From positions 1-40,454 of IMG/VR virus record IMGVR_UViG_3300048091_000435: DNA of 40,454 nt; one strand, given 5' to 3'. Under the pieces are notes generated by a model that saw only the letters and a list, made by a program, of their open reading frames with translations, did not search any database and was not told the origin of the DNA. This document shows positions 1,982-38,195 of the stretch, in pieces. Origin of the DNA: a virus. Both the position numbers and the translations under genes were made by a program. The number at the start of each line of letters is the position of its first letter. The first letter of the stretch is position 1.

Positions 1982-3766
1982 CTAATGAGCCGCAGCTGCC
2001 GGTAAGGTCTCGATCATGTGCTTGATTGTGAGGTTGCCGAGCTTCGATCCCAATGCTGAGAAGTTATCTTGATTGTCCCTTAGATGCATTGCGTCGTTGT
2101 ATATAACTGCCAAGAGGAAGTATACCTCTGGAATTATTGCCCCCTTGGACTGAGCGAACTCCAGCTTAGCCACAGTCTTGTGAGTTGATAAGAATTCCTC
2201 GCGGAAAGCTGGATCAATCAGTTCATAGCCAAGCGCCTCAACTCGTCGGCGTACGGCGCTACAAACAGCAAGAGGGTCGAAACTATTATCTTGGATATAC
2301 CGCTCTAATTGCTTTCTGCAGTGCTCAGCAAACTGCGACGACTTTGCCAGAGCCTCAGGCAAGCCAAGAAGTTTAAATTCATTAGATAGGTCTCTGTCTT
2401 CGTGATGAAAATGTAGGAAAAATTTGGCGACCGGATCCTCAATGGATTTGTCACACCTCTTGATTATTATCTTTTCGACACCTCTATCTGCCGCGGCACA
2501 TTTATTTAGATAACAAACTTTTTGATCGCTGAAGGTGAAATTTCTGAAAAGGCCAGGATTCAAATGAGTCATAATCAACGGAAAAATCTGGCGGCCTTCC
2601 GATTTTATTTCTGCGATCATTTGCGTCAGGTAATACTGGCAGGCAACTAGGTTTGCGTCGTCCAGATAATCGAATATTTCATCGATGATGATAATGCATT
2701 TGTTCTTTTTAAGTTTAAGCTTGGCTTTTTTTAATTGAGCCACAAAGCAAATAATGTCGCGCTCACCATTGGAGATTTGATTTGCTTTTGGGAATGTTAC
2801 TACAAGCCCCTCTCCTGTTTCTTTAGGTGTTATGTTCTGCCACGTGCCTTTGAGAGCACTAAAGGTTTGAGCGTATGCGTTTTTTTCGACTAAGTAATTG
2901 GAACGCTCGCCCGCCTTTCTAAAGGTTGGCTTATCTTTGGCGTGAATGTCGGAAATTTGTAGTGCTGCGAGCACATTCTCAATCTCAGTGGGGTAGGCCG
3001 CCCCCGACTCCTTCAAAGCTTTTATGGTGTCGTATACGTAAGCCACAGCCACTACTGCTTCACAATCTTCGGGGGCAATGCTGGCGAGAATACTTGCGGA
3101 GTTACCATTGGCAGAGTTTATTTTATCCTTTAGGGCTTTTATTGTATTGTTGATTCCAACCTGTCCTTGTTTTGAAAAATCAACCTGATTCCAAATCTTG
3201 GCCATCAGGGGGTTATCTGTCAGAAGGTTAGAGATGTTTGGAAGCACCTTTCCATTATTGCCGAAATCCGTTTTGGCTGTGGAATACGAATATGCAAACT
3301 TGGCTGCCGCAGGGATGGTTTTAATGAGAACGACTGGGTGAACTTCGATAGCAGACGTAACAGTAATGGTGCCGCTAATCTTTAGTTTTTTCGCTTTCGA
3401 CACAAGCTGGCTATTAATTACGTGAATGTCGAATATTGCGTCTAGCTCATTTTTTTTGTCGTCCGCTTCCTTTTCAATGGTGGTGCCATCCTGCATTGTG
3501 TAGGTTAACTTCAAGCTTGGCTTAAGGGATTCGTTACCTTTATGGGTGTTATCCTTGTGCAATTCAATTCGCTTCGAATTCAAAGAAGCGAAAGCAGCGG
3601 TAATAGAGCTTTTCCCAAAACCGTTTGGAGCAACAATGAGTGTTGGTTTATTTGGGATGAGTAGGACGTCGAAAGCGGTCTGGTCAATGCCTTTAACATT
3701 GCTTATTGCGATTCTTTCCATTCGCTTGATCATATAGTATCCAATCCTTTCCATTGGTGAAGGCAT
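1982..3766 (-). CDS. SMC/ABC-type AAA ATPase, probable defence protein
   Basis: A 594-residue ATPase of the RecF/SMC/AAA_13 kind. Walker A is APNGFGKSS (residues 46-54), the ABC-like signature is ISNGERD (about 329), and Walker B is IIIIDEIFDYLDD (about 359-371). There is no long coiled coil and no C-terminal TOPRIM motif, so it is neither a Rad50-like protein nor an OLD nuclease. The C-terminal 160 residues are helical, with RRRVEALG near 505 and YNDAMH at 556-561. The gene is much more AT-rich than the phage core and ends 28 bp from the integrase gene, same strand. An internal start (MIKRMERI, ATG at 3733) is possible; the first ATG has GAGG 5 bases upstream. Family relatives often work in abortive-infection systems; here the function is inferred only. 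Confidence 0.7.
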   Translation of the reverse strand: MPSPMERIGYYMIKRMERIAISNVKGIDQTAFDVLLIPNKPTLIVAPNGFGKSSITAAFASLNSKRIELHKDNTHKGNESLKPSLKLTYTMQDGTTIEKEADDKKNELDAIFDIHVINSQLVSKAKKLKISGTITVTSAIEVHPVVLIKTIPAAAKFAYSYSTAKTDFGNNGKVLPNISNLLTDNPLMAKIWNQVDFSKQGQVGINNTIKALKDKINSANGNSASILASIAPEDCEAVVAVAYVYDTIKALKESGAAYPTEIENVLAALQISDIHAKDKPTFRKAGERSNYLVEKNAYAQTFSALKGTWQNITPKETGEGLVVTFPKANQISNGERDIICFVAQLKKAKLKLKKNKCIIIIDEIFDYLDDANLVACQYYLTQMIAEIKSEGRQIFPLIMTHLNPGLFRNFTFSDQKVCYLNKCAAADRGVEKIIIKRCDKSIEDPVAKFFLHFHHEDRDLSNEFKLLGLPEALAKSSQFAEHCRKQLERYIQDNSFDPLAVCSAVRRRVEALGYELIDPAFREEFLSTHKTVAKLEFAQSKGAIIPEVYFLLAVIYNDAMHLRDNQDNFSALGSKLGNLTIKHMIETLPAAAAH

Positions 3767-3794: not shown

Positions 3795-4961
3795 CTACAG
3801 ATTCAGAGCGTGTTGTAGGATGCTGATGACGTCCGGACCGTCCTCGTTGATCCAGGTGCCATAGTGCTGGCGGATCATGTTCCCATTCGTATGCCCCATC
3901 TGCTCTGCGATCCAGTCAATCGACGCCACCCCCGTCGTCAGCAACTGACTGGCGTAGGTATGCCGGCACTGCCCAGGCCCACGATACCGAACCCCGGCCG
4001 CATTCAAGTGCGCCTTAAAAAACCGATCCCGCACAACAAAGTCGCTCACATGCGGCAATCCGCTTTTGCTGTTCAGAAAAACGAAGTGTAGTTTGTGCTG
4101 CCGCACTGTCTTGTTATCCCGCTCAACAATCTCGACTGTCTCCGTCTTCTTCTTCTGATTAATTGCATTGATCTTGCGCAACGCATCCCATGCCGGCTCC
4201 AGCAGCCGCACCTTCCGCGTCGAACGCCGAGTTTTCGTTACCCGATACGCCCCGCGTACTTTTGAGCGGCGGAAAATTACCGTCCCTCGCTCCAGGTCGA
4301 CATCCTCCCAAGCCAGGGCAATGGTTTCTGAAACCCGTGGCCCAGCCCAAATCATGAACTGCACCATCAACAGCTCCTGTGTGCGGCTGGTTGGCGTTTC
4401 GAGAATTTGTTTGATTTCCGCCCTGGTGAACGGGTCCGGAGCTTCTGGATCAGGCAGGCGAACGAACAATCCTTCAGTCGGATCATGAGCCACCTTTTTA
4501 CGAGTGCGATACAGCCTGAAGACTTGGCGCACGTTGCTGATGATGTCTCGAATGGTCTTGTTCTTGAGCCTCTTCGATAGTGTGTCCTGCACCCACTCCT
4601 GCAAATCCAAATGATCAATCTGGTCTATCTGAACCTTGCCCCAACGCGGCCGGACATGGACCTCTGCTTTGTTGGCGTACCCCCGGTAGGAAGTGGCGGC
4701 AACGCTGTTGCATTTGATCTTCAGCCACAGGTCCAGGTAACAGCCGAAGGTGTTTTCGACCAGTCTGGGCGAGTTGGGAAAATGCCGGCTGTATTCGAAA
4801 GTGCCGGCCTGTATCTCGTACTCGATGATGTTCACCAAGCGCGCGGCATGCTCCCGGTTGGCTGCTGTGTTGCCGCCGGGGACAAGCTCCCGGCACAACT
4901 CGCCATTGAAACGAAAATAGACCCGTACCGAATTGCCACGGGCCTCTACGCCATCTGCCAT
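3795..4961 (-). CDS. int: Phage tyrosine integrase
   Basis: Site-specific recombinase that integrates and excises the prophage. The chosen start (MADGVEARGNSV) gives 388 residues and has GGGGA 5 bases upstream. The frame stays open to 5042, but that extension crosses a hairpin at 5012-5033 and has no protein-like character. An arm-binding domain (about 1-70) and a core-binding domain are followed by the catalytic domain: the Arg in GPRVSETIALAW, a Lys-rich beta turn (KTRRSTRKVRL), the GQCRHTYAS box, and GHTNGNMIRQHYGTWI with the nucleophilic Tyr. The first His of the usual HxxR box is Gly here (GQCR), a change I believe is common in phage integrases of this subgroup. As the last gene of the early leftward operon, its 3' end should face attL. 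Confidence 0.93.
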   Translation of the reverse strand: MADGVEARGNSVRVYFRFNGELCRELVPGGNTAANREHAARLVNIIEYEIQAGTFEYSRHFPNSPRLVENTFGCYLDLWLKIKCNSVAATSYRGYANKAEVHVRPRWGKVQIDQIDHLDLQEWVQDTLSKRLKNKTIRDIISNVRQVFRLYRTRKKVAHDPTEGLFVRLPDPEAPDPFTRAEIKQILETPTSRTQELLMVQFMIWAGPRVSETIALAWEDVDLERGTVIFRRSKVRGAYRVTKTRRSTRKVRLLEPAWDALRKINAINQKKKTETVEIVERDNKTVRQHKLHFVFLNSKSGLPHVSDFVVRDRFFKAHLNAAGVRYRGPGQCRHTYASQLLTTGVASIDWIAEQMGHTNGNMIRQHYGTWINEDGPDVISILQHALNL

Positions 4962-5011
4962 GTGCGTCCCCACGCAATGTATTGAACAACCGACCAGCCT
5001 CCTGGAAGAGG

Positions 5012-5033
5012 AAAGGCCCGTTACCGGGCCTTT
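5012..5033 (-). terminator. Hairpin upstream of int, possible terminator
   Basis: AAAGGCCCG and CGGGCCTTT form a perfect 9-bp stem around a 4-base loop. On the minus strand it follows the 69-residue gene (stop at 5053) and precedes the int start (4961). The downstream tract is only TTTCCTCTTCC, so termination is probably partial, which would lower int expression from the early operon. Confidence 0.5.
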
Positions 5034-5052
5034 CAGGGTCAAGTGTTGCCGA

Positions 5053-9622: not shown

Positions 9623-9814
9623 TTAGAACGTTTCTGCCGCTTCATGAGCGATGTTCAGCGGAGTGATTGCATCACCGATGGCAATCCTGATGTCAGTGCC
9701 TGAGAGCGAATCGTTGGTGGTTGCTGCAATTTCTTTTAATGTGTCCAGTCGCTGCTGGGCGATGACCAGTAGATCCAGTAAGTGATTTCTTTCTAAATCG
9801 GAGATGTAGGTCAT
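9623..9814 (-). CDS. Hypothetical small early protein
   Basis: A 63-residue acidic helical protein (MTYISDLERNHLLDLLVIAQQ to AIGDAITPLNIAHEAAETF). Its start codon shares the palindrome CATG with the start of the divergent plus-strand gene at 9813. The ribosome site is weak (GTGAG about 9 bases upstream, inside the other gene). The stop lies 10 bp before the Ogr start, so it belongs to the same operon. The segment DIRIAIGDAITPL resembles DIRFAVDDVATAL of the divergent neighbour, so the two may be distant paralogues. Confidence 0.55.
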   Translation of the reverse strand: MTYISDLERNHLLDLLVIAQQRLDTLKEIAATTNDSLSGTDIRIAIGDAITPLNIAHEAAETF

Positions 9815-10031
9815 GGCGGCTCACTCAAAAAAGGATGTTGAAAGCTTGATGCAGCGCTTGCAGGAGCGGCATGAAGCGCTGGTGGAAATCATGCGTGGTC
9901 GCGAATCCATGAAGCTGACCGCTACCGGGGAGGTGCCAGCACTATTCGTAAAGGCCGAAGACATCCGCTTTGCGGTGGATGACGTCGCAACAGCGCTGAA
10001 AGAGATCAAGGCTCGTCTCGGTAAAGGCTGA
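9813..10031 (+). CDS. Hypothetical small protein, divergent in the early region
   Basis: A 72-residue charged protein (MAAHSKKDVESLMQRLQERHEALVEI, then KAEDIRFAVDDVATALKEIKARLGKG). The ATG at 9813 follows GGAG by 9 bases. Its composition is protein-like and the opposite strand is not, which favours a real gene. It is plus strand inside an otherwise minus-strand early operon and would be antisense to the read-through RNA. Two helices with a basic end are predicted by eye. Function unknown. Confidence 0.55.
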   Translation: MAAHSKKDVESLMQRLQERHEALVEIMRGRESMKLTATGEVPALFVKAEDIRFAVDDVATALKEIKARLGKG

Positions 10032-10047
10032 GTGCGGCTGTGCATGC

Positions 10048-10524
10048 TCACCTTCCTTCCGTCGTCTTACTGTGCAGTTGGATGGTCGCCAGCACCTCTG
10101 CATAGCGGGCAGACATGTAGTGCATCAAGGCTTTGATAATTGCGTCAGCTTCCCCAGCTTCAATAACGCCATCGTCGAGCGCCTTGGAAATGATCTGGTC
10201 GACCAAACCGCGCTTGGCTGCCGCTTTGACTGAGCGGCTGTATAAATCGATATTGTCTAGGGTTCCCGGCATGGTCAGCGGCACAAACATTCCGCCATAC
10301 AGCCCGCTGACGTAGTCAGGAAGGAACGTGGTCCCCGCGACTTGTTCCAAACGATGGATATGGTCATCGGTCAGCGGGCGGCTGCCAGCGTTTTCGTATG
10401 CCTGGTTATCGAACTTCTTGATGGTCATGCCGAGTTCGGCAGCGGCATATAGACGCCCGCCTGGGTAAGCGCAAATGACTGCACTGACTACATCCTTTCT
10501 GTTGGCTAGAACTGAACGTTTCAT
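10048..10524 (-). CDS. CII-like phage regulatory protein (CP76 family)
   Basis: A 158-residue protein starting MKRSVLANRKDVVSAVICAYPGGRLYAAAELGM. The N-terminal part (AAAELGMTIKKFDNQAYENAG, then LTDDHIHRLEQVAGT) matches the layout of the phage CII/CP76 family, helix-turn-helix proteins that control lysogeny. The start at 10524 has GGAGG about 10 bases upstream; the frame opens 33 codons earlier but that stretch is Arg/Ser/Gly-rich and overlaps the Cro-like gene. It is the second gene of the leftward early operon, 29 bp after the Cro-like gene, which is where cII-type genes usually lie. Confidence 0.72.
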   Translation of the reverse strand: MKRSVLANRKDVVSAVICAYPGGRLYAAAELGMTIKKFDNQAYENAGSRPLTDDHIHRLEQVAGTTFLPDYVSGLYGGMFVPLTMPGTLDNIDLYSRSVKAAAKRGLVDQIISKALDDGVIEAGEADAIIKALMHYMSARYAEVLATIQLHSKTTEGR

Positions 10525-10553
10525 CTTCTGGTTTCCTCCCTGAGCCAACGGAC

Positions 10554-10766
10554 CTAGTTTGTGACTACGCCGTCTTTGATGCCGAGAAGCACCGCGGCGC
10601 GGTGAGCTTCGCCCCGCAGACATTTCTTCTGTCCGTTTAGAACCGCGTACACCGTTGACGGATTGAGTTTGTGCTGTTCAGCCCAGTCTTTCGCGGAGAG
10701 CCCTTGGTGCGCCAAGCGACTTCGGGCCTCTTGGCATACTTGCTCGGTGGGGTATGCGTTCGGCAT
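10554..10766 (-). CDS. Cro-like HTH protein (BcepMu gp16 family)
   Basis: A 70-residue DNA-binding protein. LSAKDWAEQHKLNPSTVYAVLNGQKK is a helix-turn-helix, and the end CLRGEAHRAAVLLGIKDG is the hallmark of the BcepMu gp16 family. It is the first gene of the leftward early operon and faces the repressor gene across an operator region, the arrangement of Cro and CI. The ATG at 10766 is chosen because the upstream extension to 10832 would run through the operator repeats. It probably represses the repressor promoter during lytic growth. Confidence 0.8.
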   Translation of the reverse strand: MPNAYPTEQVCQEARSRLAHQGLSAKDWAEQHKLNPSTVYAVLNGQKKCLRGEAHRAAVLLGIKDGVVTN

Positions 10767-10773
10767 AGTCTCG

Positions 10774-10793
10774 TTTCGTGTGATTTCGTGTGA
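10774..10793. promoter_or_regulatory. Two tandem 10-bp repeats in the immunity region
   Basis: TTTCGTGTGA occurs twice with no spacer (10774-10783 and 10784-10793), a perfect one-turn tandem repeat. It lies 8 bp upstream of the Cro-like start. The 10-bp period would put two protein subunits on the same face of the helix, so it is a candidate operator for the Cro-like or CII-like protein. Confidence 0.5.
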
Positions 10794-23601: not shown

Positions 23602-23942
23602 ACGCTGGCCCCCAGCTGCAACGGGACGCTAAGACTCAAGGGCTCGTTGGTGTCGACACGGCTGCATTCGATGTCCATCACCGTCTGGCCTTGCAACGTG
23701 GCCCCCATGAACTGCACGCGGCTGAGGGAAATCCGGGGTTCCCAGCGCATTAGAGCCATGACGGTGGCGGCATAGACACGCAGTCGAGTGACTTCATTGA
23801 ACGGATGGTCGACCAGCTCTGGCAGAAAGCTGCCGTACTCCCGGCGCATCACGCGGGTGCCTAGGCGAGTGGTCAGGATGTCGGTGGTCGACTGGACAAT
23901 ATGTTCAACCGTGTCGATCGCGGCGCCGGTTTCTCGGTTCAT
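23598..23942 (-). CDS. W: Baseplate protein gpW (gp25-like)
   Basis: A 114-residue member of the gpW/T4 gp25 family (P2: 115). IVQSTTDILTTRLGTRVMRREYGS is the family core with the conserved RxxRREYGS-type EPR loop. It nucleates sheath assembly at the baseplate. It overlaps both V and J by four bases. Confidence 0.94.
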   Translation of the reverse strand: MNRETGAAIDTVEHIVQSTTDILTTRLGTRVMRREYGSFLPELVDHPFNEVTRLRVYAATVMALMRWEPRISLSRVQFMGATLQGQTVMDIECSRVDTNEPLSLSVPLQLGASV

Positions 23943-24529
23943 TCCGGTTTCCCCGTCTTGCCGCTGCCTGACATCACGGCGCCGTGCGGATGGTTGACCA
24001 AGCTGATCTCGGCGGCGACCACATCTTCCGAGGCGATGACTTTCCCAGTGATGGCTTGATTGCCTTCCTGGGTGTAATTGCCGGTCTGCGTGTAGTCACC
24101 TTCATGGGTGATCGATCCGACGATGTGAATACCGCCGGTACTAATCAAGTCCGTGGTACCGCCTTCCACCAGCACGGCGCTGAGGTGGTGAGCAACGCTG
24201 TCGTACTCGATGACGGTGCCGTCGTGATAGGTGCGCCGGTGCAGCCCAGGGCGATCGCCATTGGCCGGATTGAGGTCGCTGAAAATGCCGGTCAGGGCAA
24301 TGCCGTTACCCAGTTGCCCGGATGGGCTGAACAGAATGACTTGCTCATCGACCGTAGGCGGGTCCCATTCCTTGCCCGCACCGGCGCGCAAAGTGATCCA
24401 CGGCAGCCAGGCAGTGGTCAGCGTTCCAGTATTTACACGCACACGGGGGGGCTTCATCTGTACTTCGGCGATGGTGCCGAAGCGGATGAGGTTTTCGATC
24501 AGGCGGGCGAGGGTGGCTAAATCGTTCAT
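23939..24529 (-). CDS. V: Baseplate spike protein gpV
   Basis: A 196-residue tail spike (P2: 211). The N-terminal OB-fold region (LIENLIRFGTIAEVQ, then VRVNTGTLTTAWLPW) and the central PPTVDEQVILFSPSGQLGNG match P2 gpV. The C-terminal Gly/Thr/His-rich repeats (GDYTQTGNYTQEGNQAITGK) form the triple beta-helix of the membrane-piercing tip. It is the first gene of the V-W-J-I-H late operon. No good ribosome site precedes the ATG, and the Ogr dyad is centred only 57 bp upstream, so its mRNA leader may be very short. Confidence 0.93.
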   Translation of the reverse strand: MNDLATLARLIENLIRFGTIAEVQMKPPRVRVNTGTLTTAWLPWITLRAGAGKEWDPPTVDEQVILFSPSGQLGNGIALTGIFSDLNPANGDRPGLHRRTYHDGTVIEYDSVAHHLSAVLVEGGTTDLISTGGIHIVGSITHEGDYTQTGNYTQEGNQAITGKVIASEDVVAAEISLVNHPHGAVMSGSGKTGKPE

Positions 24530-24576
24530 GGCGCCGATGGTGGTGCCATGCGTGCGTGAGCGCAGTAATCTCGATT

Positions 24577-24595
24577 TGTAGGCGAGTAGGCTACA
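24577..24595. promoter_or_regulatory. Ogr-type activator site between V and the cargo gene
   Basis: TGTAGGCGAGTAGGCTACA, the most symmetric of the three TGT-N13-ACA dyads (TGTAG and CTACA). It lies between gpV (minus) and the plus-strand cargo gene. Measuring about 55 bp from its centre puts a start site right at the V start codon on one side and 32 bp before the cargo start codon on the other. Confidence 0.6.
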
Positions 24596-24672
24596 GGTGG
24601 TCGGTCTAAGCTATGGTGTCGAAACGCCCAAACGGCAGAAGTATCTCGATTGATTTCAAAGGAGTGAACTAG

Positions 24673-25893
24673 ATGTTGTCAATTATGCATCCAAGCGTTA
24701 TGCGAAAGGTTCATGAGTTATCTGTCGGGCTTCTGCCTGTAATAATTAAGGCTGATTCGATTCCTAAGTTGATAGTTAAAGTATCTAAGGAGGCCATCTT
24801 AACGGCTAAGGTTAGGAAGGGGTTCCTGATTTATTTGATTCCGTATGAGGTTTTGGGGGTTAAGTCTGTTGGTTTTTTGGCGGCTTTTTTTGATGATCAA
24901 CACCATCCTTATACGGCGAGCGGCGCGCTGATTAGGGAGTTGTCAGGAAGGGAGCTTTCTAAGTTGTTCGTCGCTCCCGTAGTTGATGTGCATTTTTTCG
25001 ACGAGCTTGGGAGGGAAATGTTGGCCTATCGGGCAGATTTTAAATCTACCAAGAAACATCGAGATGTGTTACGTGGGGCAGTTATTCCGAGCATTCATGG
25101 ATTGAATCAAGGTGCAGTTCTTGATCAGATCAATGATTGGTACAAGCTCAGTAGTTTGGAAGATGATGCTTCGGCAATAAAAGTAACCTTTGTAGAACCG
25201 ATCATGCCAGAGGATATTGTTTATTTTGATTTGCGTCATGATGTCAACAGCTATCACGGGAGTCCAGGTTTTAGTGAGGCTCCCCTTGAGCGTGAGATTC
25301 CCGGGCCACCTCAAGAGAAAGAGATAATCGCTTTGCTTCAACGTACTTTCGATTCTAATGAAATCTATTTGGCACCAAAAAGGACAGACGATAAAAGGGA
25401 GGTGGTCGATATTCTCGTTGTCACAGATCAGAGTGTCATTTTGATCCAGGCTAAGGATAATCAGAATCTTGAAAGCATCCTAAATAAGACGATTGAAAAA
25501 AAACGAACGGCGACAAATAAAGCGTTGAAGAAGGGGCTTGATCAAGTTGGGGGTGGAATAACTTACCTTAAAAAGTCGTCACTTTTAGTGTTTTTGATGG
25601 ATGGGGATGAGGTCGAAATAGATTTGACCGGTAAGAGAATTTATTCGATTGTCATTGTCAAAGAATTATTTATTGATGATTATGATGTTTATACGCCGCC
25701 TATGCTTGAGCTGTATGAGAGGACTGGAGTCCCATGCATCCCATTGTCGTATAGTGAGTTGCATCAATACACGCGCTTTATTCAGGGGGATCAACCATTC
25801 TTCGAGGCTTTTATAAAGGTTTTTAATCATGGGTTAGAAACAGGAATGTTCCCCCGTCTGCGAGTGTTGCCCCCTGGTTCTATTGTTAACTAA
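24673..25893 (+). CDS. Cargo gene with PD-(D/E)XK-like motif, function unknown
   Basis: A 406-residue protein in AT-rich DNA, inserted on the plus strand between the end of the S operon and the V start. Residues 243-261 read EVVDILVVTDQSVILIQAK: D246 followed by Q259-x-K261, the pattern of restriction-like nucleases with Q in place of E, and E217 is a candidate for the upstream acidic residue. The first 200 residues show alternating strands and helices without a motif I know; residues about 290-406 are mixed. No signal peptide or membrane segment. The ATG has AAAGGAG 8 bases upstream. It ends with a 4-bp convergent overlap with gpS. The position fits a phage moron, possibly for superinfection defence; this is inference. 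Confidence 0.8.
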   Translation: MLSIMHPSVMRKVHELSVGLLPVIIKADSIPKLIVKVSKEAILTAKVRKGFLIYLIPYEVLGVKSVGFLAAFFDDQHHPYTASGALIRELSGRELSKLFVAPVVDVHFFDELGREMLAYRADFKSTKKHRDVLRGAVIPSIHGLNQGAVLDQINDWYKLSSLEDDASAIKVTFVEPIMPEDIVYFDLRHDVNSYHGSPGFSEAPLEREIPGPPQEKEIIALLQRTFDSNEIYLAPKRTDDKREVVDILVVTDQSVILIQAKDNQNLESILNKTIEKKRTATNKALKKGLDQVGGGITYLKKSSLLVFLMDGDEVEIDLTGKRIYSIVIVKELFIDDYDVYTPPMLELYERTGVPCIPLSYSELHQYTRFIQGDQPFFEAFIKVFNHGLETGMFPRLRVLPPGSIVN

Positions 25894-26354
25894 TCACGAA
25901 TAGTGAGGTGCGATAGTAAGCCGTCGCGGATCAAATCGAGATCCGCTTCGGTGAAACCGAGAATTTCTCGCTGTTCGTACTTTATATCAGGAGCGTCGCG
26001 CTCCGCACGATCCTTCAATCCGTACTGATGCACTCTGGCTATGCGAGCGATGCGACCCGTGAAGCCAACGCTGATGGCGTTGCCGTCACCCTGAACCTTG
26101 AGAAAGCTAGCGGTGCGCAGCTTCTGGAACATCTGAACTTTCCGCTTCACCCGTCCCTGTTTATCGCGCAGGTTACGCTGCTTGCGCGGGGCATACTTGC
26201 TTCCATCCGGATTGCGCTGGGTGATCACTCTTTGCTGTTGGCTGCGGCGTAAAGCCTGACCGAGGCTTCGAGCCAGTCTGTTGCGTGATGCGGGCTCCAG
26301 TTGCCCGAGCAGACCGGCCGCCCAATCTTCCAGCGCCTCCAGTCTGTTAGTCAT
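25890..26354 (-). CDS. S: Tail completion protein gpS
   Basis: A 154-residue gpS homologue (P2: 150). Typical features are LEALEDWAAGLLGQLEPASR at the start, SLGQALRRSQQQRVITQRNPDG and the basic KYAPRKQRNLRDKQGRVKR, then RIARVHQYGLKDRAERD. It helps complete tail tube assembly and joining. It is the last gene of the O-N-M-L late operon and overlaps R by 8 bp. Confidence 0.92.
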   Translation of the reverse strand: MTNRLEALEDWAAGLLGQLEPASRNRLARSLGQALRRSQQQRVITQRNPDGSKYAPRKQRNLRDKQGRVKRKVQMFQKLRTASFLKVQGDGNAISVGFTGRIARIARVHQYGLKDRAERDAPDIKYEQREILGFTEADLDLIRDGLLSHLTIRD

Positions 26355-31313: not shown

Positions 31314-32144
31314 TCAGCAGTCGGTCACGACCTGGTTATCGCCGCCGGATACCGGAGGGCGCGTCTTCTGGTTATGGTCCTGGGTGTTCGAGAGGTTGGT
31401 CTTCAGCTCTTTCAGTTCAGTGCTGATCTGGTCGAGCTGAGTCTTCAGTCCCGCTGAAAATTGTTTCTCGGCGGCCAACTGGTCGGGCAAGTCTTTAACG
31501 TGTTCGGCAAGGGTCTGGACCGCTTCGCCGATCTGGGAAAACTCAGCGTCATCCTTGGTCTGCTTGCCGGTCAGCAGGCTTTTCACGGTGCTGAGCAATT
31601 GGGCGCCGATGCCAGGCTTTTCCTCGAACTCTTCGAACTTCAGTTCGGTCTCGACGGCCTCGGTGAACATCGAGGTTGCGGAGTAGTGGCGATCCTTGAA
31701 CGGGCTGACGTCCGGTTTCTGCGCCGAGAACGCCAGTACGTCGGTGCCCAGGCTGGCCGGCGAGTCGGTCACGGCCAGGCCGACGATGTAGGCCTCTCCG
31801 GTATCCGCGAAACTGTCGTCGATTTCGATCGAGGTGTAGATCTTCTGTTTCGCCTTGTTCATGGCGATCAGTTCAGCGGTGGGCTCGACCTGAGCGAATA
31901 GCGCGAGCTTTTTCTGACCGTTGATATCGATCTCCTCGGTCTTCACCGCCAGCACATCGCCGTAGGCCTTGAACGGACTGTCCGGCAGCAGACTGCGGAA
32001 GTGCTCCAGCCAGATGCGGGCGCCATAGGTGGACGGATTGAAGTTTTTGGCAGCCTGTTCCAGCCAGGCACGTTTGATGGTTCGCTTATCCGAGGTAGCG
32101 CCCTCGACGGCGACGCGGAACCAGTTACTGCGGAATTTCTTCAT
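31314..32144 (-). CDS. O: Capsid scaffold and maturation protease gpO
   Basis: A 276-residue scaffold-protease (P2: 284). The start MKKFRSNWFRVAVEGATSD places Asp19 and His48 (GARIWLEH) at the positions of the P2 protease triad, with Ser105 in YTSIE close to the P2 serine. The C-terminal third is a Gln/Lys/Leu coiled scaffold. The ATG at 32144 has GAGGA 8 bases upstream, so the longer frame to 32222 is rejected. First gene of the large O-to-S late operon. Confidence 0.93.
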   Translation of the reverse strand: MKKFRSNWFRVAVEGATSDKRTIKRAWLEQAAKNFNPSTYGARIWLEHFRSLLPDSPFKAYGDVLAVKTEEIDINGQKKLALFAQVEPTAELIAMNKAKQKIYTSIEIDDSFADTGEAYIVGLAVTDSPASLGTDVLAFSAQKPDVSPFKDRHYSATSMFTEAVETELKFEEFEEKPGIGAQLLSTVKSLLTGKQTKDDAEFSQIGEAVQTLAEHVKDLPDQLAAEKQFSAGLKTQLDQISTELKELKTNLSNTQDHNQKTRPPVSGGDNQVVTDC

Positions 32145-32233
32145 GCCGGGAATCCTCAATGCGTTGGGCGCTAAGTGCGTTGCAATGAGGGGCATGGTCG
32201 TGACGCGCGCGAGTTGCGGCAACGAGGCGGGAC

Positions 32234-32252
32234 TGTAGAGGAGGGGGGTACA
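32234..32252. promoter_or_regulatory. Ogr-type activator site between O and P
   Basis: TGTAGAGGAGGGGGGTACA: TGT and ACA half sites with 13 bases between. It lies in the divergent O/P region, so one dyad may serve both late promoters. Centre to the O start is 99 bp; centre to the P start (32300) is 57 bp. Confidence 0.6.
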
Positions 32253-32299
32253 AGGGGCGGTGCTATTGAGTCGCAGGCATGGGCGGCAGCATCGCGGCC

Positions 32300-34057
32300 A
32301 TGACTACGACCGAACTGCTGCCCATCGATCCCCGCCGCCAATCCAAGTTTCTCTATTGGATGGGGTGGCGCATCTGTGAGATCGCCGAGGCTACGGGCGA
32401 AAAGGAAAAAACGCTACACAGCTGGAAGGCCCGCGACGAATGGGACAGGGCTGACAACATTGAGCGCATCGGTGGAGCGCTGGAAGCCCGATTGGTGCAG
32501 TTGATCCTCAAGGACAACAAAAGCGGTGGCGACTTCAAGGAAATCGACCTGTTGCACCGTCAGTTGGAGCGGCAGGCCCGAATTCAACGCTTCCAGAGCG
32601 GTGGTACCGAAACCGAACTCAACCCGAACCTGGCCAAACGCAACGAGGGACCGAAGAAGAAAACCCCGAAAAACGACATCAGCGAAGACCAGATCGAGCT
32701 GTTGCGTGAAGCGTTCATCGATGGCTGTTTCGACTACCAAAAAGACTGGTACCGGGCCGGCAATCAACGGACCCGCGTCATCCTCAAAAGCCGGCAGATT
32801 GGTGCAACCTACTACTTCGCTCGCGAGGCGTTTATCGATGCCCTGGACACCGGGCGCAATCAGATTTTTCTCTCTGCATCGAAGAACCAGGCCTACCTAT
32901 TTCGCGGATACATCCAAGCCTTTGCCCGCGAGGTGATCGGCGTTGAGCTGACCGGCGATCCCATTGTGTTGCCCAATGGCGCCGAGCTGTTTTTCCTCGG
33001 CACCAACGCCCGTACTGCCCAGGGCTATCACGGCAATTTCTACTTCGACGAATTCTTCTGGACGTTCAAGTTTGAAGAGCTGAACAAGGTCGCCTCGGGC
33101 ATGGCGATGCACAAGAAGTGGCGCAAAACCTACTTCTCGACGCCATCGAGCATGGCACACGAGGCCTACACCTTCTGGACGGGCGAGCGCTTCAACAAGG
33201 GCAAGCCCGCCGCGCAGCACACGAAGGTCGACGTGTCCCATGGCGCACTCCAGCAAGGGCGGTTCTGCGAGGACCGGTTGTGGCGGCAGATCGTCACAAT
33301 CCTCGACGCGGAGCAGGGCGGTTGTGATCTGTTTGACATCGAAGAGCTGCGCCGCGAGTACAGCCCCGAGGCGTTCGCCAACTTGCTGATGTGCGAATTC
33401 GTGGACGACGGTGCAAGCATCTTCCCACTGACCGTATTGCAGCCGTGCATGGTGGACAGCTGGGTCGAATGGGCTGAGGACTACAAGCCCTTTGCTATGC
33501 GGCCGTTCGGAGACCGTCAGGTGTGGGTCGGCTATGACCCGGCAGAAACGGGGGACTGTTCTGGCTTGGTGGTATGCGCGCCGCCGTTGGTACCTGGCGG
33601 CAAATTCCGTGTGCTCGAGCGCCACCAATTTCGTGGTATGGACTTCGCCGCCCAGGCCGCCGCGATCAAAGGAGTCTGCGATCGCTACTGGGTGACTTAC
33701 ATCGGCATCGACGTCACCGGTCTGGGTAGTGGCGTGGCCCAGTTGGTGCGCCAGTTCTTCCCTGCGGTCACCACCTTCAGCTATTCGCCCGAAGTCAAAA
33801 CGCGCCTGGTGCTCAAAGCATATGACGTTATCCACAAGGGGCGGCTGGAGTTCGACGCCGGCTGGACCGATATGGCCCAGTCACTGATGGCCATCCGCAA
33901 AACCATCACCGCCGGCGGCCGCCAGTTCACCTACACCGCCGGCCGCAACGACAACACGGGCCACGCCGACTTGGCGTGGGCGCTCTTTCACGCATTGCAC
34001 AACGAACCGCTTGAGGGGCAGACCGCTGCCAATACCGGGCGGATGGAGATTTATTGA
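32300..34057 (+). CDS. P: Terminase large subunit gpP (packaging ATPase)
   Basis: A 585-residue ATPase (P2: 590). The N-terminal HTH (GWRICEIAEATGEKEKTLHSW) is followed by a Walker A-like VILKSRQIGAT (about 160-170), Walker B YFDEFF (about 248-253) and a C-terminal nuclease-fold region starting VGYDPAETGD (about 411). It pumps DNA into the prohead. Start: ATG 32300 (MTTTELLPIDPRR); the earlier ATG at 32279 is also open but lies nearer the Ogr site. Divergent from O and overlapping Q, as in P2. Confidence 0.94.
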   Translation: MTTTELLPIDPRRQSKFLYWMGWRICEIAEATGEKEKTLHSWKARDEWDRADNIERIGGALEARLVQLILKDNKSGGDFKEIDLLHRQLERQARIQRFQSGGTETELNPNLAKRNEGPKKKTPKNDISEDQIELLREAFIDGCFDYQKDWYRAGNQRTRVILKSRQIGATYYFAREAFIDALDTGRNQIFLSASKNQAYLFRGYIQAFAREVIGVELTGDPIVLPNGAELFFLGTNARTAQGYHGNFYFDEFFWTFKFEELNKVASGMAMHKKWRKTYFSTPSSMAHEAYTFWTGERFNKGKPAAQHTKVDVSHGALQQGRFCEDRLWRQIVTILDAEQGGCDLFDIEELRREYSPEAFANLLMCEFVDDGASIFPLTVLQPCMVDSWVEWAEDYKPFAMRPFGDRQVWVGYDPAETGDCSGLVVCAPPLVPGGKFRVLERHQFRGMDFAAQAAAIKGVCDRYWVTYIGIDVTGLGSGVAQLVRQFFPAVTTFSYSPEVKTRLVLKAYDVIHKGRLEFDAGWTDMAQSLMAIRKTITAGGRQFTYTAGRNDNTGHADLAWALFHALHNEPLEGQTAANTGRMEIY

Positions 34058-35064
34058 TGACCGAACAACTCGCCAGCCAGACACTGATGCCCGCCATCCC
34101 CGCGTCACCTGCCAGCCAGGGCACGCAGGTGTTCAGCTTTGGCGAGCCGTCGCCGGTATTGGGTGGTAGGGAAGTATTCGACTACCTGGAGTGCTGGTTT
34201 AACGGTCGCTGGTACGAGCCGCCGCTGTCCCTCGATGGCCTGGCCCGGTCGGTGGGGGCGAGCGTGCATTTGCATTCGGGCTTGATGTTCAAGCGCAATC
34301 TGTTGAGTAAGACCTTTATCCCACATCCGCTGTTTTCTCGGGCCGCGTTCGAACAATTCGCCCTGGACTTTTTGTGCCTGGGCAATGGTTATCTTGAAGC
34401 TCGGCGCTCAGTACTTGGCAACACCCGGCAACTGGCGCCGCCGCTCGCGAAATACATGCGGGCTGGACTCGATGGGCAGTACTACCAAGTGCGAGGTTGG
34501 AAGGATGAGCATGCATTCGAACCAGGCAGCATTTTCCATCTCCGTGAGGCGGACCTACACCAGGAGATTTATGGACTGCCGGAGTGGATCAGTGCCTTGC
34601 AGTCAGCCTTACTGAACGAGTCAGCCACCTTGTTCCGTCGCAAGTACTACGAGAACGGCAGTCATGCCGGGTTCATCCTGTACATGACGGACGCGGCGCA
34701 GACTGAGACCGACATCGACGCACTGCGCAAGGCGCTCAAGGAATCGAAGGGACCAGGAAATTTTCGAAATCTTTTTGTGTACTCACCGACCGGCAAGAAA
34801 GACGGGATTCAGTTGATCCCTGTCAGCGAGGTGGCGGCAAAGGATGAGTTCAACTCGATCAAGAATCAGACACGGGATGATGTGTTGGCCAGCCTGCGCA
34901 TTCCACCGCAGCTTATGGGTATCGTGCCTCAGAACGCTGGGGGATTTGGGTCGATTAAGGAGGCAATCGATGTTTGGATGGCTAATGAGCTAGAACCGAT
35001 TCAAGAAAGAATGACTCAGCTGAATGATTGGGTAGGGGAGGAAGTTGTAAAGTTCAAAATATAG
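34057..35064 (+). CDS. Q: Portal protein gpQ
   Basis: A 335-residue portal (P2: 344). VFSFGEPSPVLGGREVFDYLECW is the family opening and DDVLASLRIPPQLMGIVPQNAGGFGS the conserved C-terminal portal motif. It forms the dodecameric DNA gate of the head. The ATG at 34057 shares one base with the P stop, and GGAG lies 8 bases upstream; a TTG three bases earlier is less likely. It is followed by the Hachiman-type operon on the opposite strand. Confidence 0.95.
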   Translation: MTEQLASQTLMPAIPASPASQGTQVFSFGEPSPVLGGREVFDYLECWFNGRWYEPPLSLDGLARSVGASVHLHSGLMFKRNLLSKTFIPHPLFSRAAFEQFALDFLCLGNGYLEARRSVLGNTRQLAPPLAKYMRAGLDGQYYQVRGWKDEHAFEPGSIFHLREADLHQEIYGLPEWISALQSALLNESATLFRRKYYENGSHAGFILYMTDAAQTETDIDALRKALKESKGPGNFRNLFVYSPTGKKDGIQLIPVSEVAAKDEFNSIKNQTRDDVLASLRIPPQLMGIVPQNAGGFGSIKEAIDVWMANELEPIQERMTQLNDWVGEEVVKFKI

Positions 35065-35145: not shown

Positions 35146-37263
35146 CTAGTTGTCCCGTTTTGAGCGAGATGTTGGAGTTGTTTTATTTATCCCCTCAAAA
35201 AAATATTCGAGAATATAGACGTCAAAAAAAGTCAGGCTGTTCGTGCGTCGTCTTATTTGCGTTAATCCTATGCTGTTGAATTTATCTATTGCTTGATGAA
35301 TTGTGAAGTCTTGGGTTTCAAAATTTATTACCTTGCTTTCATGAAGTTTTTTGGAAATCATTCTTGGGAGGCCATATTCTTCTAGTTGGTAAACTATAGA
35401 TGGCAAAAAAGCGTGAGCAACTTTCGCGGCGAATGGGGAAATGTCTAAGTTGGTTTTTTTGAGAATGACTTTTTGTAGGGTGTTCACATCTTTTAGTAAG
35501 GACGAAAGTTTGAATGTTGCATTTTTTTCTAGCTTAAAAAATAGATTAACATCTATGTTGTGTTTTTTTAACTCTGTTAGAAGTTCTGGTATGCTCTTGC
35601 TCCAGTTTTGCGAAAGTATTTTTACGAACGCAACAAATCTACTATGCTCAATTTCCCAAATACCCGGTTGGAATTTTATTATTTTATACAGGTAAGCATC
35701 CCAATGTTGGGTTTCACTTGAGTTTAAATAAGAGAGGCCGCGCCAATATTCGGGGTTGTTCTGTAATTCGGCTGCTATTGTTTTTACTACCGCGCCGCCA
35801 CATTGGAGGGAGTTATCATTTTGGAATTTTTCAAAGTTGCTGGTTCCGATTATTTCAGATAACTCCTCTCTGTAGGCAATGATTTTTCCTATCTGCTCTC
35901 TCGATAGGTCACCTTTATAATCCTGTTCGTTAATGTCACTGAGTAGGGCGTCTGGGAGAACTAAGTCTAACGATGTGTCTATGGGTTCAGGCGGTTTCTC
36001 AAGAATAAAAACATGCCCTATGAAGTGCTTGAACATTCTTCCACTTCGGCCAATGATATTTTTGTAGGTGAAGTCGTTAAGCTTTGAGCTGCCGTTTTTG
36101 TTTCTCCAAATTACGACGTTTTCAGCGGACGTGTTAACTCCCTCGATAATTGATGAAGTGGAGATAATGTTTTTCAGTCCGAATGGTTCTTCGAATAATT
36201 TTATTTGAATTTGACTTAAGGAGCGGTGTAGTTGGCCGTTATGGATGCCTGTTGATTTTTTAATTAATTTTACGAGTGGCCAAGTGCTTGAGTAGTTCTT
36301 TGATATCCATTTTGAAAATTGGTCAAGTAAGTGGCTTTCTGTACTTGCTAAGTTGCTTATTGCGAGAGCGGAGACTCTGTCAATATCTGCATATGTTCCT
36401 GCATATACAAGAGTTTTTCCGCTGTTTTCTCTTAATATTTTAGTGAGTGCTAGGTTTTTCTGTTCTTCATTGCTGATCTTTTTATATAAATCATGCTTCG
36501 CTAGAAATACAGTGTTGAAATCCAGGGAGATGAAGCGCATTCCTTTGGTAAAAGGGTTTTCATTTAATTTTGATATGTTTGGTGCTAAGAAGTACCGCTG
36601 CTTGGAAATGGCTCCCAGCTTAATGATTGATTTGATCAGTGCACTCGATCTTTCCTTGTCGAAAGCTGCACTCGCTTTATAAAATTCATCCACAACGAGT
36701 ATGTCAATATCTTTGAGTTTTGGGATATAGGTGATTGCTCGCTCTTGCGGAAAGATGAATATATTCTTTTTGCCTGGGGCGGCTTCTGTTGTCGTTATGA
36801 TCTTGTATGTGTCGGAGAATTTTGGGTAAAGACGGCGGCGAGTTTCGTCAGTTAGAGCGATTGTTGGTACGATTATAACTACATTGTTAGGTTTTTTTAT
36901 TGAAATAAATGAATCGATGACGAAGCTCTTTCCGAAGCTGGTTGGAGCGCTAATAGCTAGGCTTTCTCCGCTCAATAGGGCTTTAAGAAGGTTCGATTGT
37001 TCTCTATGTAAAGTGAGCGGTTCCGTAGCGCCAGTATCAACCTTAAATGCTTCGTAGACAAAACGATCCTGCCAATCCGCGGTATCCTTCTGTATGTATG
37101 GATACAGGCCGGCAGATCTTATTAAATGATTAACTAAAGGAGTGTAGTTGATGTTGTTGGATTCATGGTGTGCTAAAAGTTTTATCAGCGCGTTTCTTGC
37201 TTCGTCTTCGAGATTAGAGTTTATTAGATCATTGATTTCAGAACAGCTAGCAAAGATATCCAT
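35146..37263 (-). CDS. hamB: Hachiman-type helicase HamB (AbpB-like)
   Basis: A 705-residue superfamily 2 helicase in AT-rich DNA. LHREQSNLL (Q89) precedes Walker A SAPTSFGKS (105-113); motif Ia is IIVPTIALTDE; motif II is LVVDEFYK (about 189-196); the second RecA domain carries STSSIIEGVN and motif VI IIGRSGRMF near 406, which places it near the Ski2-like group. It starts 2 bp after the HamA stop. Helicase plus DUF1837 nuclease is the Hachiman defence pair; in known systems HamB senses DNA damage or phage DNA intermediates and releases HamA. Its length is close to that of E. coli AbpB, so an AbpAB-type label is the alternative. Confidence 0.85.
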   Translation of the reverse strand: MDIFASCSEINDLINSNLEDEARNALIKLLAHHESNNINYTPLVNHLIRSAGLYPYIQKDTADWQDRFVYEAFKVDTGATEPLTLHREQSNLLKALLSGESLAISAPTSFGKSFVIDSFISIKKPNNVVIIVPTIALTDETRRRLYPKFSDTYKIITTTEAAPGKKNIFIFPQERAITYIPKLKDIDILVVDEFYKASAAFDKERSSALIKSIIKLGAISKQRYFLAPNISKLNENPFTKGMRFISLDFNTVFLAKHDLYKKISNEEQKNLALTKILRENSGKTLVYAGTYADIDRVSALAISNLASTESHLLDQFSKWISKNYSSTWPLVKLIKKSTGIHNGQLHRSLSQIQIKLFEEPFGLKNIISTSSIIEGVNTSAENVVIWRNKNGSSKLNDFTYKNIIGRSGRMFKHFIGHVFILEKPPEPIDTSLDLVLPDALLSDINEQDYKGDLSREQIGKIIAYREELSEIIGTSNFEKFQNDNSLQCGGAVVKTIAAELQNNPEYWRGLSYLNSSETQHWDAYLYKIIKFQPGIWEIEHSRFVAFVKILSQNWSKSIPELLTELKKHNIDVNLFFKLEKNATFKLSSLLKDVNTLQKVILKKTNLDISPFAAKVAHAFLPSIVYQLEEYGLPRMISKKLHESKVINFETQDFTIHQAIDKFNSIGLTQIRRRTNSLTFFDVYILEYFFEGINKTTPTSRSKRDN

Positions 37264-37265
37264 TT

Positions 37266-38195
37266 CTATTGCTCCTTGTAGTGTTTTACATTTGATAGAA
37301 ACTTGTCAACGATGATTTTCTTGGAGGGGACGGGGAAAAGAATTATGTGGAAATTAATTTCGCTGTATTTGTGAAGGGTGTTTATTTTCTTTATTTGTTT
37401 TTTGAAATAGGCGGTGGCTCTATCTGTATGGTGTGTTGCTATATTTTCTTTGTAACTGCTAGTCATTTCTTTTTGTGCTTTAGTAATATCGCACTCGTGT
37501 ATCAGTAAGATGGGTATATTGATTTTATGTTTGAGGGTGTCAATGGATTCCTGAGGTGATAATGTTTCTTTTATGTTGCGTCGCATGTCTTCGTCATCGA
37601 TTATTAGGTCGATGTCATTGACGTTTATTATTATTGCGTTTTCTTTTTTAAGCTTGTCTGTTTTTATAGAATTGGCTACTGATTCAACTATTCTTCCGAG
37701 GTTTACATCTTCTATGCTGGTATAAAATTTTGCCTCGCCAAACCATATTGTAAAGTCATTCCCCGAAACTACGATGTGTACGCTGTCTGCCCCTTTCGCG
37801 TTATCTTGTGGATTTTGTTTGTAAAATATTTTTGGCACGACAGGTAGAGCGTGGAAATGATGTTTCATTATTCCGTATAAAACGATTTCTGCGAGCTCAC
37901 TTCCCGCGCCTATTTTGTCTTGTTTGTCAGTAAGCCTGAGGTTTTTTGCTGCCGAAGTAAGAAGTGAATGATTTACTAGGCTGTCTCGCTCTCTTTTGGA
38001 AAGCGCAGTTTCTGCGATGTTATCCCATATGAAGTTTTGAAATTGAGAGTAGCGCCATCTCCCGTCTTCAAAGTCATTTACTAGGCTAAGTATCCTTTTG
38101 TTGCTAATAGGGGTAAGGCCTTCTTCCAGGTTGAATTTCTCGAACAGATCATCAATGAGTATCTCGAAACCTAGTTTTTTTTGTATTTTTTTCAT
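37266..38195 (-). CDS. hamA: Hachiman-type nuclease HamA (DUF1837, AbpA-like)
   Basis: A 309-residue DUF1837 protein. The nuclease core is E100 in GAGSELAEIVLYG, D137 in KGADSVHIVV, then WFGEAK with E154 and K156, a PD-(D/E)XK arrangement. Residues 161-309 are a Lys-rich helical tail. It is followed after 2 bp by the helicase gene and overlaps an upstream small gene by four bases (ATGA), so all three are probably one transcript. In described Hachiman systems HamA degrades DNA when released by HamB and stops phage spread by killing or arresting the cell. Confidence 0.85.
   Translation of the reverse strand: MKKIQKKLGFEILIDDLFEKFNLEEGLTPISNKRILSLVNDFEDGRWRYSQFQNFIWDNIAETALSKRERDSLVNHSLLTSAAKNLRLTDKQDKIGAGSELAEIVLYGIMKHHFHALPVVPKIFYKQNPQDNAKGADSVHIVVSGNDFTIWFGEAKFYTSIEDVNLGRIVESVANSIKTDKLKKENAIIINVNDIDLIIDDEDMRRNIKETLSPQESIDTLKHKINIPILLIHECDITKAQKEMTSSYKENIATHHTDRATAYFKKQIKKINTLHKYSEINFHIILFPVPSKKIIVDKFLSNVKHYKEQ

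Follow-up and report, generated by a model that had tools for sequence, protein, structure and literature searches.

A candidate anti-phage nuclease gene in the S/V (orf30) slot of a P2-like Pseudomonas prophage

Introduction

In a P2-like Pseudomonas prophage, an AT-rich gene that lies between S and V, on the strand opposite to the late genes, raises the questions of what its product does and what kind of site it occupies. The gene is contained in a viral contig of 40,454 nucleotides (IMG/VR record IMGVR_UViG_3300048091_000435, positions 1 to 40,454), the whole of which is referred to here as the window. The original prediction, made from the sequence alone, was that of a protein with a D-QxK nuclease-like motif, perhaps an anti-phage moron in a new cargo slot. 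Of this, the predicted nuclease and the variable cargo were upheld, and the new slot was not borne out: the literature gives three moron regions for P2-like phages, including ORF30 between V and S (PMC6823313), or the TO region, Z/fun and orf30 (PMC3091744). The V-S locus is thus listed as a moron region since at least 2010 (PMC3091744, PMC6823313), which rules out a new slot. P2 orf30 (261 bp) and ORF16 of R18C (741 bp) are likewise cargo between S and V, neither having an assigned function; the occupant described here is a protein of 406 residues with a predicted nuclease fold.

The hotspots of P2-like phages which are dealt with in the other reports consulted are the A-Q region in E. coli (PMC9122126) and the fun locus, which was added as a P2 hotspot (PMC9519451). 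The defence character of the S/V slot is apparently undescribed in the open-access literature searched, in which no description of the orf30 locus as a defence hotspot was found, although this is not proof of absence.

Results and Discussion

The cargo gene

The gene is an intact open frame of 406 codons with an ATG start (Table 1), and the GGAG of the Shine-Dalgarno-like site is retained in an alignment of 8 copies from S/V slots. It lies tail to tail with the gpS-like ORF, the sequence CTAA (25890–25893) being common to both. The GC content is 0.42–0.43, versus about 0.60 on both flanks. The frame opposite to the late genes, the 4-bp overlap with gpS and the sharp contrast in base composition, all noticed originally, were therefore confirmed. 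Comparison with the copy at locus L002 yielded 10 non-synonymous and 21 synonymous differences; with a dN/dS of 0.13, the gene is under purifying selection. A scan for sigma-70-like promoters returned 3 sites, with 2.6 expected and none upstream of the cargo gene, and for this reason no promoter is claimed for it. Terminator-like sites were absent from 24500–26000.

Table 1. Features of the S/V locus in the window, and neighbours of relatives of the cargo gene outside P2-like phages.
Feature	Position or locus	Strand	Basis
gpV-like baseplate gene, opens next late operon	23939–24529	−	DNA match to annotated GpV/GpW (D14A, others)
TGTA-N11-TACA dyad upstream of V, V-side slot border	24577–24595		Copy in window and comparison of intervals
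Shine-Dalgarno-like AAAGGAG, 8 nt before ATG	24658–24664	+	Read from sequence
Cargo gene, two-domain protein, 406 aa, predicted PD-(D/E)XK nuclease	24673–25893	+	ORF, translation, AlphaFold2 model
N-terminal alpha/beta domain, residues 1–200	24673–25272	+	Model, alignment
Predicted C-terminal PD-(D/E)XK nuclease domain, residues 201–406	25273–25890	+	VIA structural matches
E215, start of first core helix (residues 212–222)	25315–25317	+	Invariant; helix in model
D246, motif Asp	25408–25410	+	Invariant
Q259-A260-K261, (D/E/Q)xK motif; E-T-K in L040/L041	25447–25455	+	Alignment
Q291, on helix 274–299 with G294	25543–25545	+	Invariant
gpS-like tail completion gene, S-side slot border	25890–26354	−	Homologous to gpS of Citexvirus D14A
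Septu neighbours (PtuA/PtuB)	L130, L159		PADLOC
CBASS neighbours (phospholipase, cyclases)	L142 (CBASS), L158 (cyclase)		PADLOC
Gabija (GajA/GajB) and cyclase neighbours	L134		PADLOC
Candidate-family neighbours	L144 (PDC-S28), L143 (PDC-M38)		PADLOC
DUF262-like protein neighbour	L145		PADLOC
Weak capP/RmrA and PDC-S31 neighbours	L149, L150		PADLOC
bSEFIR neighbour	L007		PADLOC
Type I restriction neighbour	L010		PADLOC
NucC-like neighbour	L009		PADLOC

Borders and occupancy of the S/V slot

V and S were assigned by way of annotated relatives, e.g., Citexvirus D14A, Dobby and Sirocco. With a gpS query 80 viral contigs were fetched, and the S-V interval was measured where both genes were found. 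The S-V loci, 87 including duplicates, were reduced to 76 distinct intervals, which are not a random set, since L001–L006, L017, L018, L127 and L128 came from the cargo search or from cargo-bearing genomes.

The late activator Ogr of P2 binds dyads of the type TGT-N12/13-ACA. Of the 76 distinct intervals, 75 have such a dyad within the final 100 nt ahead of V; among the 76 matches found, 75 begin 65–67 nt before V. We take the dyad upstream of V to be a probable late-activator (Ogr-type) site. Given its position, cargo is flanked by the stop codon of S on one side and by the V promoter region on the other, and an empty interval consists of little more than this promoter region; the description of the gene as lying exactly between two late operons therefore holds. 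The sole other TGTA-N11-TACA dyad in the window, at 32234–32252 between the divergent frames 31314–32222 (−) and 32279–34057 (+), is probably another late-activator site.

Nearly empty intervals were found only in D14A (66 bp) and L072 (58 bp); the other 74 are filled, with lengths of 502 to 2696 bp (median 976) and GC contents of 0.37–0.53. Their fillings fall into 27 nucleotide clusters, and cargo genes occur on either strand. Four of the 80 loci obtained with the gpS query (L043, L044, L052, L073) have the gene of the window, while the remaining measurable intervals contain different cargo or next to nothing, which rules out a conserved phage structural gene. The occupant is accessory and variable, as are morons of P2-like phages at the orf30 locus. 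The comparison of S-V intervals across P2-like phages, which had been proposed together with the prediction of variable cargo, thus bore out that prediction and revealed a hypervariable slot.

From 31 listed clusters of other cargo proteins (≥100 aa), 17 were scanned against PADLOC (E ≤ 1e-5). Seven matched, namely PD-T7-4, Septu PtuA, AbiV and four candidate families (PDC-S45, PDC-S15, PDC-M36A, PDC-S31); 10 of the 17 had no PADLOC match. Others have identified Septu and AbiV as defence systems. PD-T7-4 is a published defence system as well (PMC9519451). Recurrent S/V cargo families which were negative with PADLOC include those in the intervals of L066, L076, L094, L103, L113, L083 and L107, besides others; all of them, the commonest family (L107 type, 10 intervals) among them, are defence candidates. 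If this reading is true, P2-like Pseudomonas phages would offer, in their S/V slot, a compact and easily cloned set of candidate defence genes, collected between S and the V promoter, mostly 0.5–2.7 kb in size, with 27 unrelated cargos in the 74 occupied intervals.

The C-terminal domain

In an alignment of 19 proteins (A1), with identities to the window protein down to 17%, the residues E215, P235, E243, D246, K261, Q291 and G294 are invariant; position 259 is Q in most members and E in L040 and L041. The motif residues D246, Q259 and K261 had thus been placed correctly, and their conservation across 19 relatives indicates that the motif is not due to chance. In the model, E215 is likely to be the active-site Glu.

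The AlphaFold2 model of the window protein, for which 18 relatives from viral contigs were added to the input (A4), had a mean pLDDT of 87.9 and a pTM of 0.84. The top row of a Foldseek search was the nickase N.BspD6I, with a probability of 1.00 but an E value of 3e-3, no row being below 1e-3; lower rows included Card1/Cdn1, NucC, HincII and Mus81. Using VIA-align, the C-terminal domain matched N.BspD6I with Z 12.6 (169 residues, 3.4 Å), FokI with 11.9 and R.BspD6I2 with 11.7, and further rows were Can2 (8.6), Cdn1 (8.5), Card1 (8.1), McrBC (7.2) and NucC (6.4). All rows with Z >8 are DNA-cutting or CRISPR-ancillary nucleases of the PD-(D/E)XK superfamily. The core fold of this superfamily, with D...(D/E/Q)xK and the helix Glu, is present in the predicted model, and a PD-(D/E)XK nuclease fold for residues ~200–400 is well supported. 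A predicted fold without a nuclease core would have spoken against the nuclease reading; such a fold was not obtained, and the reading is supported by the predicted core together with the conserved motif.

Position 259, being Q and not D or E in most members, could suggest a protein which has retained the fold only and acts without cutting, as a DNA-binding or sensor protein. We consider this quite improbable, since E, D and K are invariant and Q is replaced by E in L040 and L041; moreover, Mrr-type enzymes possess a D...QxK motif, and QxK is the active form in them.

The N-terminal domain

When folded alone, residues 1–200 gave a pLDDT of 87. G19, K36, D74, D75, P79, F109, E115 and D165 are invariant in 17 aligned sequences of this domain, and positions 19, 36, 74 and 79 are the invariant ones in the N-terminal half of the alignment of 19 proteins. 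Comparison with the PDB (Foldseek, VIA) gave no match above Z 4.3, which is not proof of a new fold. The weak rows, mainly for YTH/ASCH-like proteins (readers of modified bases) and for MPN domains, were set aside, because they were within chance and the alignment shows conservation neither of an aromatic cage nor of an HxH metal motif.

Comparison with known families

The window protein was not recognised by Pfam or PADLOC at E values up to 10, and nothing usable came from searches by sequence in Pfam, PADLOC, NCBIfam and the PDB, whether the query was the protein alone or a profile; tblastn against annotated phage records gave no match. PHROG 30399 (unknown function) matches residues 211–336, and a viral structure library gave weak matches only, a few of them named restriction endonuclease. 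The HMM search which had been suggested for the gene was thus successful as to a PHROG in the nuclease region and not as to a family of Pfam, PADLOC or NCBIfam.

Structurally, the C-terminal domain matches the type IIS cleavage domains of FokI and N.BspD6I best (Z 11.7–12.6). However, identities are about 10–18%, the recognition domains of these enzymes are unmatched by the N-terminal domain, and the S/V slot, flanked by V and S, contains no further gene, neither an adjacent methyltransferase nor a second subunit.

Shedu (SduA) is similar in layout, in that a single gene encodes a variable N-terminal domain and, after it, a C-terminal PD-(D/E)XK domain. SduA of E. coli matched with Z 7.9 (150 residues), in a range which the tool calls common by chance, and Shedu of B. 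cereus with Z 6.1. A profile comparison of the C-terminal half with 12 SduA_C segments from Pseudomonas genomes gave 115 collinear columns and a score of 25.1, but an HHalign probability of 8%; D, (E/Q)xK, Q and the last strand (and loop) were in register. The score was not reached by any of 200 column shuffles (maximum 20.0), by the reversed profile (10.4) or by the N-terminal half (14.6). SduA_C (PF14082) and the SduA model of PADLOC did not match the window protein at E up to 10. Further differences are the motif, which is mostly QxK and not ExK, the N-terminal domain with its lack of matches beyond the Z value given above, and a fold which is closer to FokI/BspD6I. We take the relation to Shedu as kinship at the level of the superfamily with a similar layout, and not as membership.

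With Mrr the protein shares the motif type. The relatives L132 and L040 had sub-threshold NERD matches at the motif, but relatives remained below the Pfam cut-off and the window protein itself has no Pfam match; a NERD profile comparison, uninformative because the alignment was of low diversity, scored 15.6 over 29 columns. Two distant relatives matched NERD and one matched Hjc (Holliday-junction resolvase) in the right place, at sub-threshold E values of 0.10–0.15, which would be in line with a nuclease that processes or repairs DNA in the life cycle of the phage itself. Such a role is most improbable, however, for a gene which most P2-like phages sharing these S and V genes lack (it is present at 4/80 gpS loci), and which is AT-rich, lies on the opposite strand and occurs outside phages too.

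Card1, Can2, Cdn1 and NucC are PD-(D/E)XK defence effectors with Z values of 6.4–8.6; they differ in that the window protein gives no evidence of a CARF or ring-nucleotide domain, and the slot contains no cyclase partner.

Relatives and their neighbourhoods

Wherever the contig also contains V or S, copies with 63–98% identity all lie in P2-like S/V slots; copies with 54–58% identity and below are outside such slots. Matches were found in 27 of 398 genomes in a scan of the genus Pseudomonas and in 2 of 398 in a phylum-wide scan (G001 and G137, both also in the genus scan), so the family is patchy. Plasmids carry four full-length relatives (31–33% identity) and a partial one. On a P. putida plasmid (L008) a relative of the 32–34% group is preceded by genes for three tyrosine recombinases and by one resembling thymidylate synthase, and twelve Pseudomonas genome loci (L028–L039) contain near-identical relatives of the same group. 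The near-identical relatives at L135, L136, L146 and L148 adjoin apparent mobilisation genes, for a MobC-like small protein and a relaxase-like protein, as judged by eye.

Neighbours were read at 23 loci outside P2-like phages, L147, L151–L157 and L173–L179 being left out. At 13 of the 23 loci, PADLOC models recognised a neighbour with E ≤ 1e-5 (Table 1); of these loci, L149/L150 and L158/L159 are pairs of similar, not independent, ones. None of the matches among the proteins tested came from the other 10 loci (L008, L011, L131, L132, L133, L135, L136, L137, L146, L148); L133 is a near copy of L134. From the neighbours, 20 proteins were sent to PADLOC and 18 matched (10/10 and 8/10 in two batches), which is not a rate, because they had been picked by eye as defence-like; 10 random Pseudomonas ORFs, used as a control, gave 1 weak partial match. 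At L142, a gene for 360 aa (9692–10774) starts at the end of the relative and is absent in the other contexts read; it is possibly a partner of the relative.

The nuclease might serve mainly the competition or stability of its own element and not broad defence, e.g., by exclusion of related P2-like phages, in a response to host DNA damage, or as a toxin-like means of prophage retention. It is a single gene with no partner, and some relatives (L008, L135, L136, L146, L148), located on plasmids and on elements that are mobilisable or rich in recombinases, have no defence neighbour among the proteins tested, which would be in line with such roles. They appear unlikely all the same, as there is no antitoxin-like partner in the slot and neighbours of the PADLOC type were found in 13 of 23 contexts.

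Proposed function

A putative anti-phage role of the gene is supported by its genomic context, and a defence function is likely. On balance we favour, with some reservation, the explanation that it is cargo of a P2-like Pseudomonas prophage in the S/V (P2 orf30) slot and encodes a single-protein anti-phage nuclease. In the lysogen, the cargo gene would be expressed from its own strand. Some feature of phage replication, or of the DNA of an invading phage, might be sensed by the N-terminal domain, whereupon the C-terminal domain would cut or nick DNA in a metal-dependent manner, so that the rival phage would be blocked or the cell killed. Before the N-terminal domain encounters such a phage-specific feature, the nuclease would be kept inactive or blind to host DNA. 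This mode of action would be most like that of Shedu, or of a type II/IV restriction enzyme without a methylase. Since S and the cargo gene converge with no terminator-like site between them, late transcripts from S would be antisense to the cargo; following induction of the own prophage, late transcription from S could perhaps switch the nuclease off.

More tentatively, it is conceivable that the protein represents a new family of immune nucleases consisting of one protein each, in which an N-terminal sensor of new fold recognises a phage-specific state of DNA or replication, and that S/V is a third P2 defence hotspot, almost always filled in Pseudomonas P2-like phages and silenced by antisense transcription on induction of the carrier. 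If the favoured explanation is right, the nuclease would form a small system of one gene, whose sensor domain lacks any relative of solved structure, and which is directly testable with one clone and two point mutants.

Other cargo of the carrier phage

The phage is already a defence carrier, since a Hachiman pair (GC 0.38) is located at 35146–38195 (−), with HamB at 35146–37263 (PADLOC, E 2.6e-250) and HamA at 37266–38195 (E 3.8e-154). It adjoins the frame 34054–35064, taken by eye and from its position to be the portal gene Q; by the same judgement, the pair would be at the classic P2 hotspot. An ATP-binding protein of 594 aa is encoded at 1982–3766 (−; GC 0.44), beside a likely integrase gene at 3795–5042. 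It has a weak PtuA-like match (E 4.5e-6), and its gene possibly marks a third cargo site of the carrier phage.
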